From positions 1 to 25,244 of the forward strand of contig CAJVXR010000014.1 of the NCBI GenBank assembly GCA_913009535.1: a stretch of 25,244 bases of DNA, written 5' to 3'. The DNA is from an uncultured Flavobacteriales bacterium. GTDB lineage: Bacteria > Bacteroidota > Bacteroidia > Flavobacteriales > Flavobacteriaceae. The notes beneath the pieces were generated by a model. That model was not told the origin of the DNA. It ran no database searches and saw only the letters and a program-made list of their open reading frames with translations. Below are positions 15,447-22,126 of the stretch, piece by piece (the first letter of the stretch is position 1; the number at the start of each line of letters is the position of its first letter). A program made the position numbers and the translations under genes.

Positions 15447-15647
15447 TACTCATATTTTAATTGTCACTAAATATATATGATATACAAACAAGCTTAAACA
15501 AAAAAATAGATGAAATTTGAATTATAGTTGAGATTTACATAATTAATAATTATGTGATAGAAAAATTATTAAAAACTGATCTTAACTAATGATAAAATTA
15601 ATAATCCATAATAATAAGTAATCAAATGACACTTATTATCAATTAAA
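15447..15647. other. Divergent thrA/trp intergenic region with an inverted repeat
   Basis: This is the thrA-proximal part of the 365-bp gap between thrA and trpE. It is very AT-rich and has no credible gene on either strand. The one structure I see is the inverted repeat ATAATAAGT (15611-15619) / ACTTATTAT (15631-15639), nine base pairs with an 11-nt loop, ending 8 nt upstream of the trp -33 element. It could be an operator or an AT-rich chance hairpin. Confidence 0.4.
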
Positions 15648-15678
15648 TTTGTTTTTTTTTAAAGGAATGTTATATTTA
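15648..15678 (+). promoter_or_regulatory. Promoter of the trp operon
   Basis: TTTG (15648-15651) followed after 19 nt by TATATTTA (15671-15678) fits the Bacteroidota -33/-7 pattern with one mismatch at the last base. Transcription should start about 5-8 nt downstream, practically at the ATG of the Trp leader peptide (15687), so the whole attenuator would be transcribed with almost no leader ahead of the peptide. Confidence 0.55.
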
Positions 15679-15686
15679 GATAAATT

Positions 15687-15746
15687 ATGATAAAAATAAT
15701 TCAAAATACTTGCTGGTGGCATAACGAAAGACTATTCGTAAACTAA
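15687..15746 (+). CDS. trpL: Trp operon leader peptide with tandem tryptophan codons
   Basis: This 19-codon reading frame encodes MIKIIQNTCWWHNERLFVN and contains two adjacent Trp codons (15714-15719), a strong enrichment for the rarest amino acid. It lies between the trp promoter and a perfect terminator hairpin placed directly before trpE. Its role is to sense charged tRNA-Trp: a ribosome stalled on the Trp codons covers ACGAA (15724-15728), freeing TCGTAAAC (15736-15743) to pair with the terminator loop region. If translation is not stalled, the ribosome reaches the TAA at 15744-15746, covers that strand, and the terminator forms. It is too short for ordinary gene callers. The peptide itself is presumably degraded. 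Confidence 0.85.
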   Translation: MIKIIQNTCWWHNERLFVN

Positions 15747-15788
15747 CCCTATAGTATTAACCAAAATATAAAGGCTTATCGTTTACGA
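15724..15788 (+). promoter_or_regulatory. Trp attenuator: alternative pairing strands (1:2 and antiterminator)
   Basis: Strand 1, ACGAA (15724-15728), is complementary to TTCGT (15735-15739), forming a 5-bp hairpin within the end of the leader frame. Strand 2, TCGTAAAC (15736-15743), is perfectly complementary to GTTTACGA (15781-15788), which spans the loop and both sides of the terminator hairpin. Pairing of 2 with that segment excludes the terminator. The two pairings share strand 2 and are mutually exclusive, as required for ribosome-mediated attenuation. These complementarities are read directly from sequence; the switching is inferred. Confidence 0.75.
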
Positions 15789-15801
15789 TAAGCCTTTTTT
15801 T
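15771..15801 (+). terminator. Intrinsic terminator of the trp attenuator
   Basis: AAGGCTTATCG (15771-15781), loop TTTA, CGATAAGCCTT (15786-15796): a perfect 11-bp stem, followed by a run of T (15795-15801). It lies 10 nt before the trpE ATG and 24 nt after the leader-peptide stop. It is the strongest intrinsic terminator seen in the window, and its position inside a leader rather than at an operon end marks it as a regulatory attenuator. Confidence 0.9.
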
Positions 15802-15811
15802 ATTAAATAAT

Positions 15812-17212
15812 ATGAAGAAATATAAATTAATCACAAACCATAAAAAAATACTATCTGATACAATTACGCCAGTTAGTATATATTTAAAAATTAGAGATAA
15901 ATACCCAAATAGTATTTTATTAGAGAGTAGTGACTACCATACAGTTGATAATAGTTTTTCGTACATATGCTGTAATCCAATATCATCAATAAAGATACAT
16001 AATGAACAAATTGAGTATACCTATCCAGACGATTCAAGTAAAACAGTTGCGTTAAATAAATCATCTAGCATCCCAAATATAATACACGATTTCACACAAT
16101 TATTTGCAGTAGATGTAAAAAAATTTAAATTTATTAATAATGGACTTTTTGGATACATTAACTATGATGCTGTTAGATATTTCGAAGATATAGAAATTTC
16201 AAAAAAAGAAAATAACCCTAACATTCCAGATATATATTATGCCGTTTATCAAAATATTATTGCAATAAACCATTTTCAAAATGAGGCACATGTCTTTGCG
16301 AATTGTTATAATAAAAACAATAATATTGAAGAAATATTACAATTAATCAGCGCAAAGAATTACCCTAACTATAACTTTGTGACTGAGGGTGAAATTAGTT
16401 CAAATTTATCCGATAATGATTTTCTAAAACACGTTGATATAGCTAAAGCACATTGTAAAAGAGGAGATGTGTTTCAATTGGTTTTATCAAAGAAGTTTAC
16501 CCAAAGCTTTATTGGTGATGAATTTAATGTCTATAGAGCACTAAGAAGCATAAACCCGTCGCCTTACCTTTTCTATTTTGATTATGGAGATTATAAAATA
16601 TTTGGCAGTTCACCTGAGGCGCAATTAATTGTCAATCACGGAAGTGCCGAAATTCATCCAATTGCAGGAACATTTAAAAGAACTGGAGATGACCTAAAAG
16701 ATGCTGAATCAGCAAATAAATTATCAGAAGATTCAAAAGAAAATAGTGAGCATGTAATGTTGGTTGATTTAGCTAGAAATGATTTGGCTAGAAATGGCAC
16801 AGAAGTTAGAGTAGATAAATATCGAGAAATACAATTCTTTTCACATGTAATTCATTTAGTAAGCAAAGTTATAGCCAAAAAATCTAAGAACATCTCAACC
16901 ATGAGAGTTGTTGCAGACACTTTTCCAGCCGGGACACTTAGCGGAGCACCAAAATACAAAGCAATGCAATTAATCGAGAAATATGAATTGACTAATAGAA
17001 GTTTTTATGGGGGAGCAATTGGATTTATGGATTTTAGCGGAAACTTCAATCATGCAATTATGATAAGAACTTTTTTAAGTAAAAACCATCAACTAAACTG
17101 GCAGGCTGGAGCTGGAATAATTTCAAAATCTAATTCTAATAATGAGTTACAAGAAGTATATAATAAACTAGGTGCATTAACTAAAGCCATAAAGATTGCC
17201 CAAGAAATATAA
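15812..17212 (+). CDS. trpE: Anthranilate synthase component I
   Basis: TrpE converts chorismate to anthranilate using ammonia delivered by TrpG, the committed step of tryptophan synthesis. The 466-residue protein has the N-terminal allosteric domain with the LLES tryptophan-binding motif (36-39), indicating feedback inhibition by Trp, and the chorismate-binding domain with HPIAGTFKRTGDD (from 282), ENSEHVMLVDLARND (about 310-324) and the C-terminal AGAGI segment. Length matches flavobacterial TrpE. The ATG at 15812 follows the attenuator terminator by 10 nt. Expression therefore depends on tRNA-Trp charging as well as enzyme-level feedback. trpG begins 3 bp after its stop. Confidence 0.97.
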   Translation: MKKYKLITNHKKILSDTITPVSIYLKIRDKYPNSILLESSDYHTVDNSFSYICCNPISSIKIHNEQIEYTYPDDSSKTVALNKSSSIPNIIHDFTQLFAVDVKKFKFINNGLFGYINYDAVRYFEDIEISKKENNPNIPDIYYAVYQNIIAINHFQNEAHVFANCYNKNNNIEEILQLISAKNYPNYNFVTEGEISSNLSDNDFLKHVDIAKAHCKRGDVFQLVLSKKFTQSFIGDEFNVYRALRSINPSPYLFYFDYGDYKIFGSSPEAQLIVNHGSAEIHPIAGTFKRTGDDLKDAESANKLSEDSKENSEHVMLVDLARNDLARNGTEVRVDKYREIQFFSHVIHLVSKVIAKKSKNISTMRVVADTFPAGTLSGAPKYKAMQLIEKYELTNRSFYGGAIGFMDFSGNFNHAIMIRTFLSKNHQLNWQAGAGIISKSNSNNELQEVYNKLGALTKAIKIAQEI

Positions 17213-17215
17213 AAT

Positions 17216-17782
17216 ATGCAAAAAATATTACTAATAGATAACTACGATAGCTTTACTTATAATTTAGCACTCTACTTAAAGGAATTAGATTGCGAAGTAA
17301 CCGTGGTTAGAAATGATAAAATGGATATTTCTCTTCCTTTAAGATTTGACAGAATATTGCTTTCCCCTGGACCAGGTATTCCTAATGAAGCTGGTGATCT
17401 AAAAAAAATTATAAAAAAATATGCAGCCTCAAAAAGTATACTAGGAGTGTGCCTGGGTCATCAAGCAATTGCAGAGGTGTTTGATGGAACCTTAATTAAT
17501 TTAAAAGAAGTATATCATGGTGTTGATATGGAAACAATTATTATAGTAGATGACGAACCTATATTCAAAGGCTTAAGTAAAAAATTTCTAACTGGGAGGT
17601 ATCATTCTTGGGTGGTAGACAAAAACATTCCTGATTTATTAGAGGTGACTGCAATTGATAATAATGGTAATATAATGTCTCTTAGACACAAAAATTATGA
17701 TGTAAAAGGAGTTCAATTTCATCCTGAATCCCTTCTTACGCCAGACGGAAAACAAATATTAAATAACTGGTTAAATTCTTAA
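17216..17782 (+). CDS. trpG: Anthranilate synthase component II (glutamine amidotransferase)
   Basis: TrpG hydrolyses glutamine and channels ammonia to TrpE. The 188-residue class I amidotransferase has the oxyanion-strand LLSPGPGIPNEAG (about 48-60), nucleophile Cys79 in GVCLGHQ, and the His169-Glu171 pair in FHPES. DNYDSFTYNL at the N-terminus is typical of TrpG/PabA. In some bacteria this subunit also serves p-aminobenzoate synthesis; being inside the trp operon, its main partner here is TrpE. It is separated by 3 bp from trpE and 2 bp from trpD. Confidence 0.97.
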   Translation: MQKILLIDNYDSFTYNLALYLKELDCEVTVVRNDKMDISLPLRFDRILLSPGPGIPNEAGDLKKIIKKYAASKSILGVCLGHQAIAEVFDGTLINLKEVYHGVDMETIIIVDDEPIFKGLSKKFLTGRYHSWVVDKNIPDLLEVTAIDNNGNIMSLRHKNYDVKGVQFHPESLLTPDGKQILNNWLNS

Positions 17783-17784
17783 TA

Positions 17785-18780
17785 ATGAAAAACATATTAA
17801 ATAGATTAACAAATCATGAAAATTTATCTAAAAATGAGGCTAAAGTTGTTTTAGTTAAAATTTCTAAAGGAGATTATAACTCAAATGAAATTGCTGCATT
17901 TTTAACTGTTTATTTGATGAGAAGTATTACAATAGAAGAACTAATAGGTTTTAAAGAAGCCTTACTTGAGTTATGTCTACCAATTGATTTATCTGATTTT
18001 AATACAATAGACTTATGTGGCACCGGAGGAGATGGAAAAGATACATTTAACATTTCAACCTTATCTTCATTTATATGTGCTGGTATAGATGTTAAAGTTG
18101 CAAAACATGGAAATTATGGAGTATCATCAGCTTGTGGGTCTTCCAATATTTTAGACTTCTTAGGAGTTAAGTTTTCTAATGATCAGGACTTTTTAATTGA
18201 ATGTATTGATAAGGCTGGAATATGTATTTTGCATGCTCCACTATTTCATCCTGCAATGAAAAATGTAGCTCCTATTAGAAAAAAAATGGGAGTTAAAACT
18301 TTTTTTAATATTCTAGGACCAATGGTAAACCCCTCTTTACCAAAGAATCAAATGGTAGGTGTATTTAACTTAGAATTATTAAGGCTTTATTCTTACTTAT
18401 ATCAAAAAACAGATAAAAAATACAGTATTATACATTCTCTTGACGGGTATGATGAGGTTTCGTTAACAGGTAAAACTAAAATATGTACTAATAGTTCAGA
18501 AATAATTATTGATGCTAATTACTTAAAAGTACCACAGATTAAAAAACATCAAATTTCTGGAGGTAATTCAATTGAATCTTCATCAAAAATTTTTATGGAT
18601 ATAATTAACGGAAATGGATCTGAAGCTCAAAATAACGTAGTATGTGCTAATGCAGGAATTGCAATTTCAACTTATAAAGGAGTTAGTATCCAGCAAGGAT
18701 TTGAATTAGCACAAGAGTCTTTAAATTCTAAAAGAGCATTAAAATCTCTAAAATCTCTTCAAAAAATAAGCAAAAAATGA
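17785..18780 (+). CDS. trpD: Anthranilate phosphoribosyltransferase
   Basis: TrpD transfers a phosphoribosyl group from PRPP to anthranilate. The 331-residue protein has the helical N-terminal domain, the PRPP-binding CGTGGDGKDTFNIST (78-92), KHGN (107-110) followed by VSSACGSSNILDFLG, and the anthranilate-site segment MKNVAPIRKKMGVKTFFNILGP. All conserved substrate-binding regions are present. It overlaps trpC by 4 nt (ATGA), implying coupled translation. TrpG and TrpD are separate proteins here, unlike the enterobacterial fusion. Confidence 0.97.
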   Translation: MKNILNRLTNHENLSKNEAKVVLVKISKGDYNSNEIAAFLTVYLMRSITIEELIGFKEALLELCLPIDLSDFNTIDLCGTGGDGKDTFNISTLSSFICAGIDVKVAKHGNYGVSSACGSSNILDFLGVKFSNDQDFLIECIDKAGICILHAPLFHPAMKNVAPIRKKMGVKTFFNILGPMVNPSLPKNQMVGVFNLELLRLYSYLYQKTDKKYSIIHSLDGYDEVSLTGKTKICTNSSEIIIDANYLKVPQIKKHQISGGNSIESSSKIFMDIINGNGSEAQNNVVCANAGIAISTYKGVSIQQGFELAQESLNSKRALKSLKSLQKISKK

Positions 18781-19562
18781 ACATCTTAGAAAAAATAGTT
18801 ATCGATAAAAAAAATGAAATTTTTCTAAAGAAAAAGTTTATTTCGATTAAGGACCTTGAGAGATTTAAGTTATTTAATTTACAAACTACATCCTTAAAAG
18901 ATAATATAAACAATAGTGATTTTGGAATCATAGCAGAATTTAAAAGAAGATCTCCTTCGAAATCAATTATCAATCAAAATTCAAATGTTCAAGATGTAGC
19001 AATGGGGTATATGAATGCGGGTGCATCTGGAATGTCAACACTTACAGATCAAAAATATTTTGGAGGTTCGTTAGAAGATTTATTATTAGCCAAATCAAGC
19101 TGCAATCTACCAATACTAAGAAAAGATTTTATAATTGATGAATACCAGATATACGAAGCTAAGGCATATGGCGCAGATGTAGTATTACTAATTGCTGCTA
19201 TTCTCAGCGTAGATAAATTAAAGTACTTGGCAAAAAAAGCTAAAGAATTAAGACTTGAGGTTTTATTAGAAGTTCATAATATCGACGAGATAAATTTATA
19301 TTCCAATGATAGTGTTGATATTATTGGTGTTAATAATAGAGACCTTAAAACATTTAAAACAAACATGGGTATAAGTAAAAAATTACTCCCTCACATCTCT
19401 AATGATTATATGAAAATATCAGAAAGTGGAATATCTAAAATAAGTTCAATAAAGGAACTTAAAGACATTGGTTATGATGGCTTTCTTATAGGAGAGAATT
19501 TTATGAAAAATGAGAATCCTGGAAAAATGGCAAATAATTTTATTAACTCATTAAAAATTTAA
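18777..19562 (+). CDS. trpC: Indole-3-glycerol phosphate synthase
   Basis: TrpC closes the indole ring, converting carboxyphenylamino-deoxyribulose 5-phosphate to indole-3-glycerol phosphate with loss of CO2 and water. The 261-residue TIM barrel shows AEFKRRSPSK (Glu54, Lys56 and the SPSK phosphate/loop motif), LRKDFI with catalytic Lys116, LLEVHN with Glu165, GVNNRDL (184-190) and SESGI (215-219). Family catalytic residues are all in place. It is a stand-alone enzyme rather than a TrpC-TrpF fusion; trpF follows after 1 bp. Confidence 0.97.
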   Translation: MNILEKIVIDKKNEIFLKKKFISIKDLERFKLFNLQTTSLKDNINNSDFGIIAEFKRRSPSKSIINQNSNVQDVAMGYMNAGASGMSTLTDQKYFGGSLEDLLLAKSSCNLPILRKDFIIDEYQIYEAKAYGADVVLLIAAILSVDKLKYLAKKAKELRLEVLLEVHNIDEINLYSNDSVDIIGVNNRDLKTFKTNMGISKKLLPHISNDYMKISESGISKISSIKELKDIGYDGFLIGENFMKNENPGKMANNFINSLKI

Positions 19563-19563
19563 A

Positions 19564-20181
19564 ATGAAGCTTAAAGTTTGTGGAATGAGAGAAAATAATA
19601 ACATCATTGATGTTTCAGAATTAAATCCAGATTACATGGGATTTATTTTTTATAATAAGTCAAAAAGGTTCGTCACTGGTGATATTCCAATTATATCAAA
19701 TAAAATTGAAAAGATAGCTGTATTTGTAAATGAAACTATAGAAAAAGTTAAAGATATACTTTGTAAATATGACATAAACACTGTTCAATTACATGGAAAT
19801 GAAGATGTCAAATTTTGTGCAGATCTAAAAAAGAATAATTTTAAAATTATAAAAGCATTCAGTATAGATGAAAATTTCGATTTTGAATGTCTTAAAGAAT
19901 TTGACACATCCTGCGATTACTATTTATTTGATACAAAAGGGAGCTATCCAGGGGGGAATGGTTATAAATTTAATTGGCAGATTTTAAAAAATTACCGATT
20001 AATTAAACCATATTTTTTAAGTGGGGGAATAGGAATAGGAGATGTAAACGATATTATTGAGTTCCGTAAAACAAAGGCAGGTAAATTTTGTTTTGCTATT
20101 GATGTAAATAGCATGTATGAAATAGAGCCAGGTATTAAAAATGTAAAAAAAATAAAGAACTTAATAAGCAATTTAAAATGA
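19564..20181 (+). CDS. trpF: Phosphoribosylanthranilate isomerase
   Basis: TrpF carries out the Amadori rearrangement of N-(5-phosphoribosyl)anthranilate, the step before TrpC. The 205-residue TIM barrel has the general-base cysteine Cys6 in [14 protein letters not shown] (75-82), the general-acid aspartate Asp123 in LFDTKG followed by [10 protein letters not shown], and the phosphate-binding segments SGGIG (about 153-157) and [14 protein letters not shown]. Residues around IDVNS differ slightly from the more common LDVSSGVE but keep the Asp and the EPG. It overlaps trpB by 4 nt. Confidence 0.96.
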
Positions 20182-21359
20182 GTTATAACATAAATAAAAA
20201 TGGATACTACGGAGAATTTGGAGGGGCATTTATTCCAGAGATGCTATATCCAAATATTGAAGAATTAAAATTGAATTATGTAAAATTCATGAATGACCCA
20301 GATTTTAAAAAAGAATTTAATCAATTACTAATAAATTATGTAGGTAGACCAACTCCTTTGTACTTTGCCAAACAGCTGTCCAAAAGGTATAATACTAAAA
20401 TATATCTAAAACGAGAAGACTTATGCCATACTGGAGCACATAAAATAAATAATACTATTGGGCAAATATTAGTTGCAAAAAAATTAAATAAAACAAGAAT
20501 AATTGCTGAAACAGGTGCTGGGCAGCATGGAGTGGCGACCGCTACAGTATGTGCTTTGATGGGGATTGAATGTGTTATTTATATGGGGGAACTAGATATT
20601 GAACGTCAAGCTCCAAATGTCGCTAGAATGAAAATGTTAGGTGCAAAAGTAATTCCAGCAAAATCTGGAAGTAAGACACTTAAAGATGCTACAAATGAAG
20701 CTATAAGAGATTGGATTAACAACCCTGAAAACACACACTATATAATAGGAAGTGTAGTTGGTCCACATCCGTATCCAGATATGGTCGCTAGATTTCAAGC
20801 AATTATTTCAGAAGAAATTAAATGGCAATTAGAATCCATGGAAGGAAGTTCATCTCCTGATTATATAATTGCATGTGTAGGCGGAGGAAGTAATGCTGCA
20901 GGAGCATTTTATCATTATTTAGATGATAAAAACGTAAAGTTAATTGCGGTAGAGGCATCAGGAATGGGTATAGATTCTGGGAAAAGTGCAGCCACTTCAA
21001 TTTTAGGAAATACTGGTGTAATTCACGGAAGTAAAACATTACTTATGCAAACTAAAGACGGGCAAATAACTGAGCCATATTCAATTTCAGCAGGATTAGA
21101 TTATCCAGGAATTGGACCAATGCATGCTAATTTATATAAAACTAAAAGAGCAGAATTTATTTCAATAACTGACAGTCAAGCAATGAAGGCCGGAATTGAA
21201 CTCTCAAGGCTAGAGGGAATAATTCCAGCAATTGAAACTGCTCATGCTTTTGCAGTGTTAGAAAATAAAAAATTTAAAAAAGAAGATATAGTGGTAATCA
21301 ATTTATCAGGTAGAGGAGACAAAGATTTAGACACTTACATAAATTATTTTAAACTTTAA
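20178..21359 (+). CDS. trpB: Tryptophan synthase beta chain
   Basis: TrpB condenses indole with serine in a pyridoxal-phosphate reaction to give tryptophan. The 393-residue protein has the N-terminal [13 protein letters not shown], the PLP lysine Lys89 in [20 protein letters not shown], the PLP-phosphate loop GGGSNAAG (about 235-242) and the C-terminal NLSGRGDKD. It belongs to the TrpB1 type that works with TrpA in an alpha2-beta2 complex channelling indole, in keeping with trpA 2 bp downstream. Confidence 0.98.
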
Positions 21360-21361
21360 TT

Positions 21362-22126
21362 ATGAATAGAATAATCAAAGAATTAGATAATAACAATAAT
21401 ATACTATCTATCTATTTTACTGCTGGACATCCAAAATTAGAGGACACCTGCAAAATAATTAAAAATTTAGAAGCAAGCGGGGTTAGTATGGTGGAAATCG
21501 GACTTCCATTTAGTGATCCATTAGCAGACGGACTAACTATTCAAACTAGTTCAACTGTAGCATTAAATAATGGAATGAATTCAGATCTATTATTTAATCA
21601 ACTAAAAGATATTAGAAAAACAGTAAAAATTCCACTAATAATAATGGGGTACTTTAATCCAATATTACAATATGGAGTTGATGATTTTTGTAAAAAGTGC
21701 AAAGAGGTTGGGGTCGATGGATTAATAATACCAGATTTACCAATAGAAGAATATTTAAAATCGTATGAAAGTATATTTAAAGAAAACAATTTATTAAATA
21801 TTTTCTTAATTACTCCTCAAACTAACAAAGACAGAATTAAATTAATTGACAATATTTCAACTGGGTTTATTTATATGGTAAGTAGCTCAGGTGTAACAGG
21901 TAGTAATAATGGATTTGATAGTGAGCAGACTGATTATTTTGAAAGAATTCAAAATATGCATTTAAAGTCTCCAAAGATTATAGGCTTTGGCATTTCTGAC
22001 TCCAAATCTTTTAATGAAGCTATTCAATTTTCAGAAGGGGCTATAATTGGAAGTGCATTTATTAATCACATAAATTCTTATGGAATTAATGGCATTCGCT
22101 CATTTATAAAAAAATACAAAAATTAA
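21362..22126 (+). CDS. trpA: Tryptophan synthase alpha chain
   Basis: TrpA cleaves indole-3-glycerol phosphate to indole and glyceraldehyde 3-phosphate and passes indole to TrpB. The 254-residue TIM barrel has both catalytic residues in EIGLPFSDPLADG (Glu45 and Asp56), followed by IIMGYFNPILQYG, GLIIPDLP, the SSSGVTG phosphate motif and GFGISD. It is slightly shorter than E. coli TrpA, normal for flavobacteria. It is the last gene of the trp operon; no clear intrinsic terminator follows in the next 180 bp. Confidence 0.97.
   Translation: MNRIIKELDNNNNILSIYFTAGHPKLEDTCKIIKNLEASGVSMVEIGLPFSDPLADGLTIQTSSTVALNNGMNSDLLFNQLKDIRKTVKIPLIIMGYFNPILQYGVDDFCKKCKEVGVDGLIIPDLPIEEYLKSYESIFKENNLLNIFLITPQTNKDRIKLIDNISTGFIYMVSSSGVTGSNNGFDSEQTDYFERIQNMHLKSPKIIGFGISDSKSFNEAIQFSEGAIIGSAFINHINSYGINGIRSFIKKYKN

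Follow-up and report, generated by a model that had tools for sequence, protein, structure and literature searches.

The trp operon of this flavobacterial DNA raises the question of whether the stretch directly upstream of trpE regulates it by ribosome-mediated attenuation, and whether such an element would be of a kind already described. The window, i.e. the whole 25,244-nt stretch of DNA that was analysed, contains a trpE-trpG-trpD-trpC-trpF-trpB-trpA run on the + strand from 15812 to 22126, assigned by NCBIfam matches. Its TrpE showed 100% identity to P0001, a JGI metagenome protein, and 75% to the TrpE of Flavobacteriaceae bacterium S0825. The neighbouring thrA is divergent, its transcription pointing away from the site. 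An attenuator for thrA was also sought on the minus strand, where no frame with tandem codons was found, and phage records gave no match to 15500-15900. The following features were identified, all on the + strand.

15648-15678, +: Bacteroidetes-type sigma-A promoter, read from the sequence (TTTG at 15648-15651, N19, TATATTTA at 15671-15678)
15687-15746, +: leader peptide frame MIKIIQNTCWWHNERLFVN, 19 codons, stop codon TAA at 15744-15746
15705-15758, +: long hairpin of the terminating state, regions 1:2, from the MFE and centroid fold
15714-15719, +: tandem Trp codons, the sensor, from the ORF translation and alignment
15736-15743, +: region 2, UCGUAAAC, the 5' strand of antiterminator helix A, ending at the stop codon and pairing with 15781-15788
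15744-15750, +: 5' strand of helix B (UAA, bulged C, CCU), whose partner is the ascending terminator arm at 15772-15778 (AGG, C, UUA), from a single-sequence fold
15754-15769, +: AU-rich linker hairpin within the antiterminator (GUAUU/AAUAU), from a segment fold of the window
15770-15801, +: intrinsic terminator, 12-bp stem 15770-15781/15786-15797, loop TTTA at 15782-15785, T-run to 15801
15781-15788, +: region 3 as partner in helix A, GUUUACGA (last base of the ascending arm, the entire loop and the first 3 bases of the descending arm)
15812-17212, +: trpE, first gene of the run; its NCBIfam TrpE match is below that model's cut-off

Judged by sequence, every part expected of a ribosome-mediated trp attenuator is present in 15648-15811, upstream of trpEGDCFBA. 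The earlier note had described a promoter, a 19-residue tandem-Trp frame, hairpins and a terminator in the right order before trpE, and they were found so, with small corrections. One of these concerns the terminator, given there as a perfect 11-bp stem: the terminator itself was recovered, and its stem is 12 bp long.

The spacing of promoter and leader was examined in the window and in an alignment of 79 sequences described below. A TAnnTTT[GA] box was present within 25 nt of the leader start in 78 of the 79 sequences, and in 66 of these 78 a TTG ended 18-20 nt upstream of it. The gap between box and start codon was 4-5 nt in 24/78 and 4-9 nt in 37/78, with 11-22 nt in the other 41. Passages of PMC9723704 place the -7 box at -12 to -5, so a 4-nt gap puts the ATG at +1. 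In the window the ATG at 15687 lies 8 nt 3' of TATATTTA, so that it is predicted at about +5. Near-leaderless translation of the leader, as suggested by the earlier note, agrees with this promoter spacing. Leaderless Trp leaders are known in Sinorhizobium meliloti, whose trpL RNA starts at the ATG according to parts of PMC7298713. Many of the relatives come near that arrangement by promoter spacing; S. meliloti belongs to a different phylum, and the likeness is one of layout, by description.

To see how widely the element is kept, genome contigs were searched with a TrpE alignment that took no account of the leader, and of the 579 loci the 80 best were inspected. The whole element was found in 78 of these 80. 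In the other two, a contig starts inside the leader with region 2 and the terminator kept (L005), or leader and region 2 are kept and Ns run from the expected terminator onward (L024). Alignment A2 omits both loci and comprises the window and the other 78. Three consecutive Trp codons were found in 76 of the 79 aligned leaders and two in the remaining three (the window, L007 and L052); at codon 9, the first Trp position, the window reads TGC, whereas a third TGG stands there in most relatives. The leaders are 14-20 aa long and start with ATG in 78/79 and TTG in one. The last Trp codon lies 17-23 nt from the region-2 core. In 79/79 the first base of the stop codon falls within 7 nt on either side of the start of that core (-7 to +7), so that region 2 would be covered by a ribosome terminating there. 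Conserved tandem Trp codons together with covarying stems, which the earlier note had proposed to look for upstream of trpE in relatives, were thus both present, and its reading of the site as a trp attenuator agrees with the conserved Trp codons, the order of the parts and the terminator before trpE. In 5 of the best 80 loci (L012, L059, L071, L075, L080) a small ORF lies between terminator and trpE. It was confirmed as PF01541 GIY-YIG in L012 and L059 and recognised by eye in the other three; flanked by palindrome-like stretches (TTCCGCGAAGGCGGAA and similar), it is possibly mobile or associated with repeats.

The structure of the leader RNA was then analysed. A search for terminator palindromes gave two matches, which are the two strands of one palindrome, against a shuffle mean of 0.0, and in the consensus terminator stem both sides had changed at 4 of 10 pairs. 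The fold of 15684-15811 reached -28.8 kcal/mol (z = -5.25; 0/200 shuffles equally good). It contains the long hairpin, built from AAUACU 15705-15710/AGUAUU 15753-15758, GGU 15715-15717/ACC 15746-15748 and ACGAA 15724-15728/UUCGU 15735-15739. The antiterminator segment folded with -11.5 kcal/mol, the two stretches being unequal in length. By this comparison the terminating fold is much the more stable of the two, so that antitermination would have to be under kinetic control.

Upstream stretches were also collected more broadly. TrpE matched at E 1e-60 in 147 of 168 Bacteroidota genomes, and stretches were fetched from 79 of the 147 (64 of the 65 best-scoring and 15 chosen from the rest). A frame with WW stood before trpE in 64/79 and one with WW or W.W in 68/79; the other strand gave 1/79, and the shuffle means were 1.0 (WW) and 1.5 (WW or W.W). 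All 37 fetched genomes with a TrpE identity of at least 46% had WW or W.W, and the 11 genomes without such a leader were all among those with low-scoring TrpE. A terminator after the leader was found by script in 50 of the 79 stretches. Among 20 chosen stretches, all with a WW or W.W leader, the cut-off of the Rfam family RF01692 (Bacteroid-trp) was reached in 4. The survey suggested that Bacteroidota commonly have a Trp leader in front of trpE, even where RF01692 does not score.

With these data we could ask whether the site is simply an intergenic terminator next to a chance WW frame, with trpE unregulated. A near-perfect palindrome of this kind could stop other transcripts, and an 8-nt complement to the terminator apex arose in 99 of 5000 dinucleotide shuffles of 15687-15769 (2%). 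Against this, a tandem-Trp ATG frame arose in only 1 of the 5000 and the two together in none, the WW frames before trpE far exceed both controls of the survey, and thrA is transcribed away from the site, so that this explanation is hardly credible. It is also very unlikely, if slightly less so, that the element senses tryptophan independently of translation (a riboswitch, or an RNA-binding protein such as TRAP) or couples translation of leader and trpE. The conserved structure and the long hairpin of the Rfam drawing would suit such readings, but start codon, in-frame Trp codons and a stop on region 2 are conserved in 79/79. Distance also speaks against translational coupling, since the leader stop and trpE are 65 nt apart in the window and hundreds of nt apart in the five loci that carry an inserted gene. 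In our view the element is very probably homologous to RF01692 and attenuates transcription of the trp operon by a ribosome-mediated mechanism.

We next analysed which part of the terminator is captured by region 2. The two mutually exclusive hairpins of the earlier note, ACGAA/TTCGT and TCGTAAAC/GTTTACGA, were located at 15724-15728/15735-15739 and 15736-15743/15781-15788. The second is helix A, whose six core column pairs were paired in 99.1% of cells across the 78 distinct sequences of A2. Region 2 reads UCGUGA in relatives and UCGUAAAC in the window. Two pairs of helix A had changed on both sides, one in the window (G-C to A-U) and one in L052 (A-U to U-A); one outer pair is broken in L017, L036, L063 and L065. 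The consensus parts of helix B were paired in 89.7% and 80.8% of cells, and linker hairpins similar to that of the window occurred in most of 20 other loci folded. Sliding the partner by 1-3 columns lowered whole-structure pairing from 93.2% to 18.8-44.3%. When partners were shuffled among sequences, pairing was 92.9% compared with 93.2% observed (4/500 shuffles as high), and pairs with changes on both sides numbered 0.6 compared with 3 observed (1/500). This control is weak and covariation in the close set is thin because the letters hardly vary. The letters of region 2 also double as leader codons, so their conservation need not come from pairing alone. Across diverged relatives, pairing was kept with other letters: CGCUGUGA/UCACAGCG in L128 (read from the sequence), UGGGAGG/UCUCCCG in L219, UAGUGAA/UUCACUA in L131 and CCGGUGAAU/AUUCACCGG in L246. 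Support from compensatory changes is thin within the close set and stronger across the diverged one.

The same geometry was probed by a region-swap test on the 50 of the 79 fetched loci in which the script found a Trp leader and a terminator. When every foreign region served as control, the loop side was specific at 5% in 9/50 and the ascending arm in 13/50. Close relatives share region 2, so the test was rerun without controls sharing at least 5 apex letters. Among 55 loci, five of which (the window, L052, L126, L128 and L131) had been added after inspection, loop plus descending arm was specific in 28 and the ascending arm in 15; without the added five, the counts were 24/50 and 15/50. L207 and L210 appeared in both lists. 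Specificity for each arm among the loci indicates that both antiterminator geometries occur in Bacteroidota.

These data bear on the possibility that the textbook E. coli geometry applies to the window, with helix B on the ascending arm as the working antiterminator and the loop pairing incidental. Helix B did appear in most of 21 folds, and the ascending arm is used by other Bacteroidota, as the 15 specific loci show. Helix A, however, is longer and more often paired, it holds two of the three pairs with changes on both sides, and loop plus descending arm was specific in more of the 50 unselected loci, 13 of these 24 having nearly the same UCGUGA-type letters (TCGTGA in DNA). We regard the E. 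coli geometry as unlikely here. Seven Trp leaders (L220, L223, L224, L225, L231, L236, L246) show a more marked version of the loop-and-descending geometry, their region 2 pairing with only part of the loop but with several descending-arm bases (CTCAGTGA/TCACTGGG in L225, for example).

From this anatomy we infer how attenuation would proceed, including stalling, ribosome footprint, timing and the response to tryptophan. The leader would be transcribed from the promoter a few bases 5' of its start codon, with a ribosome trailing RNA polymerase. When charged tRNA-Trp is plentiful, the ribosome would reach the stop codon directly after region 2 and mask region 2, or it would depart and the 1:2 hairpin would re-form; either way the 12-bp terminator would fold and transcription would end before trpE. 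When charged tRNA-Trp is scarce, the ribosome would stall on the two Trp codons. Given the footprint size of a ribosome, it would then cover region 1, which lies 5-9 nt downstream, but not region 2, which follows after a 16-nt gap. The free region 2 could capture the emerging terminator loop together with the upper descending arm, while helix B would take the ascending arm, so that no terminator would fold and trpEGDCFBA would be read.

To place the element among known systems, it was compared with Rfam. At the gathering threshold the whole window gave only a SAM riboswitch (RF00162, 22307-22407, + strand, 83.7 bits), which lies between trpA and an O-acetylhomoserine sulfhydrylase/MetX-like gene, and no trp family. 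At a relaxed threshold on a short stretch, RF01692 matched at 15670-15780 (+ strand, model positions 1-131 of 131) with E 0.0014 and 6.8e-4. The score of 41.0 bits is below the cut-off of 49, so the copy in the window was filed as a diverged homologue and not as a formal Rfam member. A match of RF02503 (Atu_C9) at the same place, far below cut-off and covering the terminator, was taken as chance. The RF01692 match is full-length, the leader carries Trp codons, trpE follows directly and the copy aligns with relatives that pass. Of nine loci run at the gathering threshold, four passed RF01692 (L001, L011, L019, L050) and five missed it, namely the diverged trp loci L128 and L129, the trpD locus L122 and the Lys loci L173 and L177; further loci above the cut-off were L183, L188, L191 and L195. 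The window resembles RF01692 in its site before trp genes, its Trp-codon leader and the hairpin region. Its long hairpin coincides with that drawn for the family, many of the model pairs being non-standard in this copy. The RF01692 model stops within the ascending terminator arm and so includes neither antiterminator nor terminator.

Bacteroid-trp was introduced by Weinberg et al. 2010, where Table 1 lists it for Bacteroidetes (PMC2864571, in part), and passages of a Flavobacterium psychrophilum paper (PMC6414381) discuss it as a trp attenuator. For F. psychrophilum, sections of PMC9723704 propose the same type of mechanism before amino-acid operons and name new structured elements before pheA and hisG; 'trp' and 'lysine' were not found in its main text. 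As stated in a part of PMC2965389, no leader-peptide system was known in 2010 beyond Proteobacteria and Actinobacteria. By sequence, the element is thus a diverged copy of an already described kind rather than an undescribed system, and it extends RF01692 by this copy and by the antiterminator and terminator that the Rfam model lacks.

In the E. coli trp attenuator (RF00513), it is the ascending terminator arm that pairs in the antiterminator. The window shares its tandem-Trp leader, with cognate codons in a short frame before the operon, the predicted 1:2, 2:3 and 3:4 pairings, and a terminator before trpE; antiterminator and terminator appear mutually exclusive and are conserved with compensatory changes. 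RF00513 was absent among the 8 Rfam matches to E 10 for this stretch. The window differs in its strongest 2:3 helix, which involves the terminator loop and the upper descending arm, and in its Bacteroidetes promoter, with the start codon about 4 nt from the predicted transcription start. The earlier note had called the antiterminator unlike that of E. coli. This contrast is right for helix A, which takes the loop, one ascending and three descending bases, and incomplete for the whole, because helix B pairs with the ascending arm. In using loop and descending arm, the geometry departs from the textbook in a way that experiments can test.

The reach of this type was also surveyed with a model, R1, built from trp leaders only, which matched in 48 of 395 Bacteroidota genomes at E 1e-3. 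The pattern CGTGA-N20-50-TGTC-N0-6-TCACGACA was found in 174 of 249 genomes of one family, in single copy except in G567 with two, adjacent genes being outside the count; the backward pattern gave 5 matches in 4 of the 249. Weak matches at L133, L134, L164-L172, L179, L180 and L182 had no convincing leader and look like ordinary terminators. A WWW leader was observed before trpD in five genomes (L122-L125, L127; TIGR01245 confirmed for the two tested), which also have a separate WW leader before trpE. In these trpD leaders, region 2 looks by eye complementary to the ascending arm (GGCAGCC/GGGTTGCC).

R1 also matched an element before an aspartokinase gene in G214 (L132), whose genus is Chryseobacterium by protein similarity (93% to C. 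arachidis). The best NCBIfam model for this aspartokinase is lysine-sensitive aspartokinase 3 (386.7 bits; cut-off 455). At E 1e-100 it was found in 7 of 40 genomes of the genus, and the same 7 have a strong module match. Among 296 genomes of the order, 8 had it at E 1e-150, all with the element: three of the earlier 7, G269 (found before) and the new G760, G779, G870 and G883. The Lys-coded element was present in 12 of 12 examined genomes with this type of aspartokinase, mostly Chryseobacterium-like.

L163, L173-L178, L181, L263-L266: Lys-coded leaders on the trp chassis, before aspartokinase

These leaders have 18 codons from the assigned start (e.g. MILSNLKKGKKQYLRPTS), some with an in-frame ATG further upstream. 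Lys codons 10-11 occupy the positions of Trp codons 10-11 in the trp leaders and are accompanied by an LRxxS tail, region 2 GTCGTGAG and apex GTCATCACGAC. R1 found all 12 loci (36.1-54.9 bits, E 6e-8 to 1.2e-4), 11 of the matches beginning at model position 13, i.e. without the Trp codons; Rfam at its cut-offs matched none of the 12. The homology claim rests on the R1 scores only, because the Lys locus L132 was part of model R2, which therefore gives no independent scores for the Lys loci. Since AT-rich genomes commonly use AAA, a Lys run by itself is weak, and the argument lies in codon register and downstream gene.

A Trp leader of different build (such as MFKMSNNIWWWLSNSSSGLKVLSCC) precedes trpE in 11 of the 12 genomes; the twelfth, G883, had no TrpE at E 1e-60. 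Because these Trp leaders are differently built, the chassis of the Lys leaders seems to have been co-opted from a trp leader of Flavobacteriaceae type rather than copied from the genome's own. In a limited literature search, one paper combined lysine, leader peptide, aspartokinase and attenuation, and in it lysC carries a lysine riboswitch. We favour, with moderate confidence, the view that attenuators of this flavobacterial type serve as an exchangeable chassis in which region 2, the terminator apex and the leader tail are retained, and in which swapped sensor codons would make a lysine attenuator of this aspartokinase gene. A working lysine form would amount to a natural experiment in switching the amino acid to which an attenuator responds.
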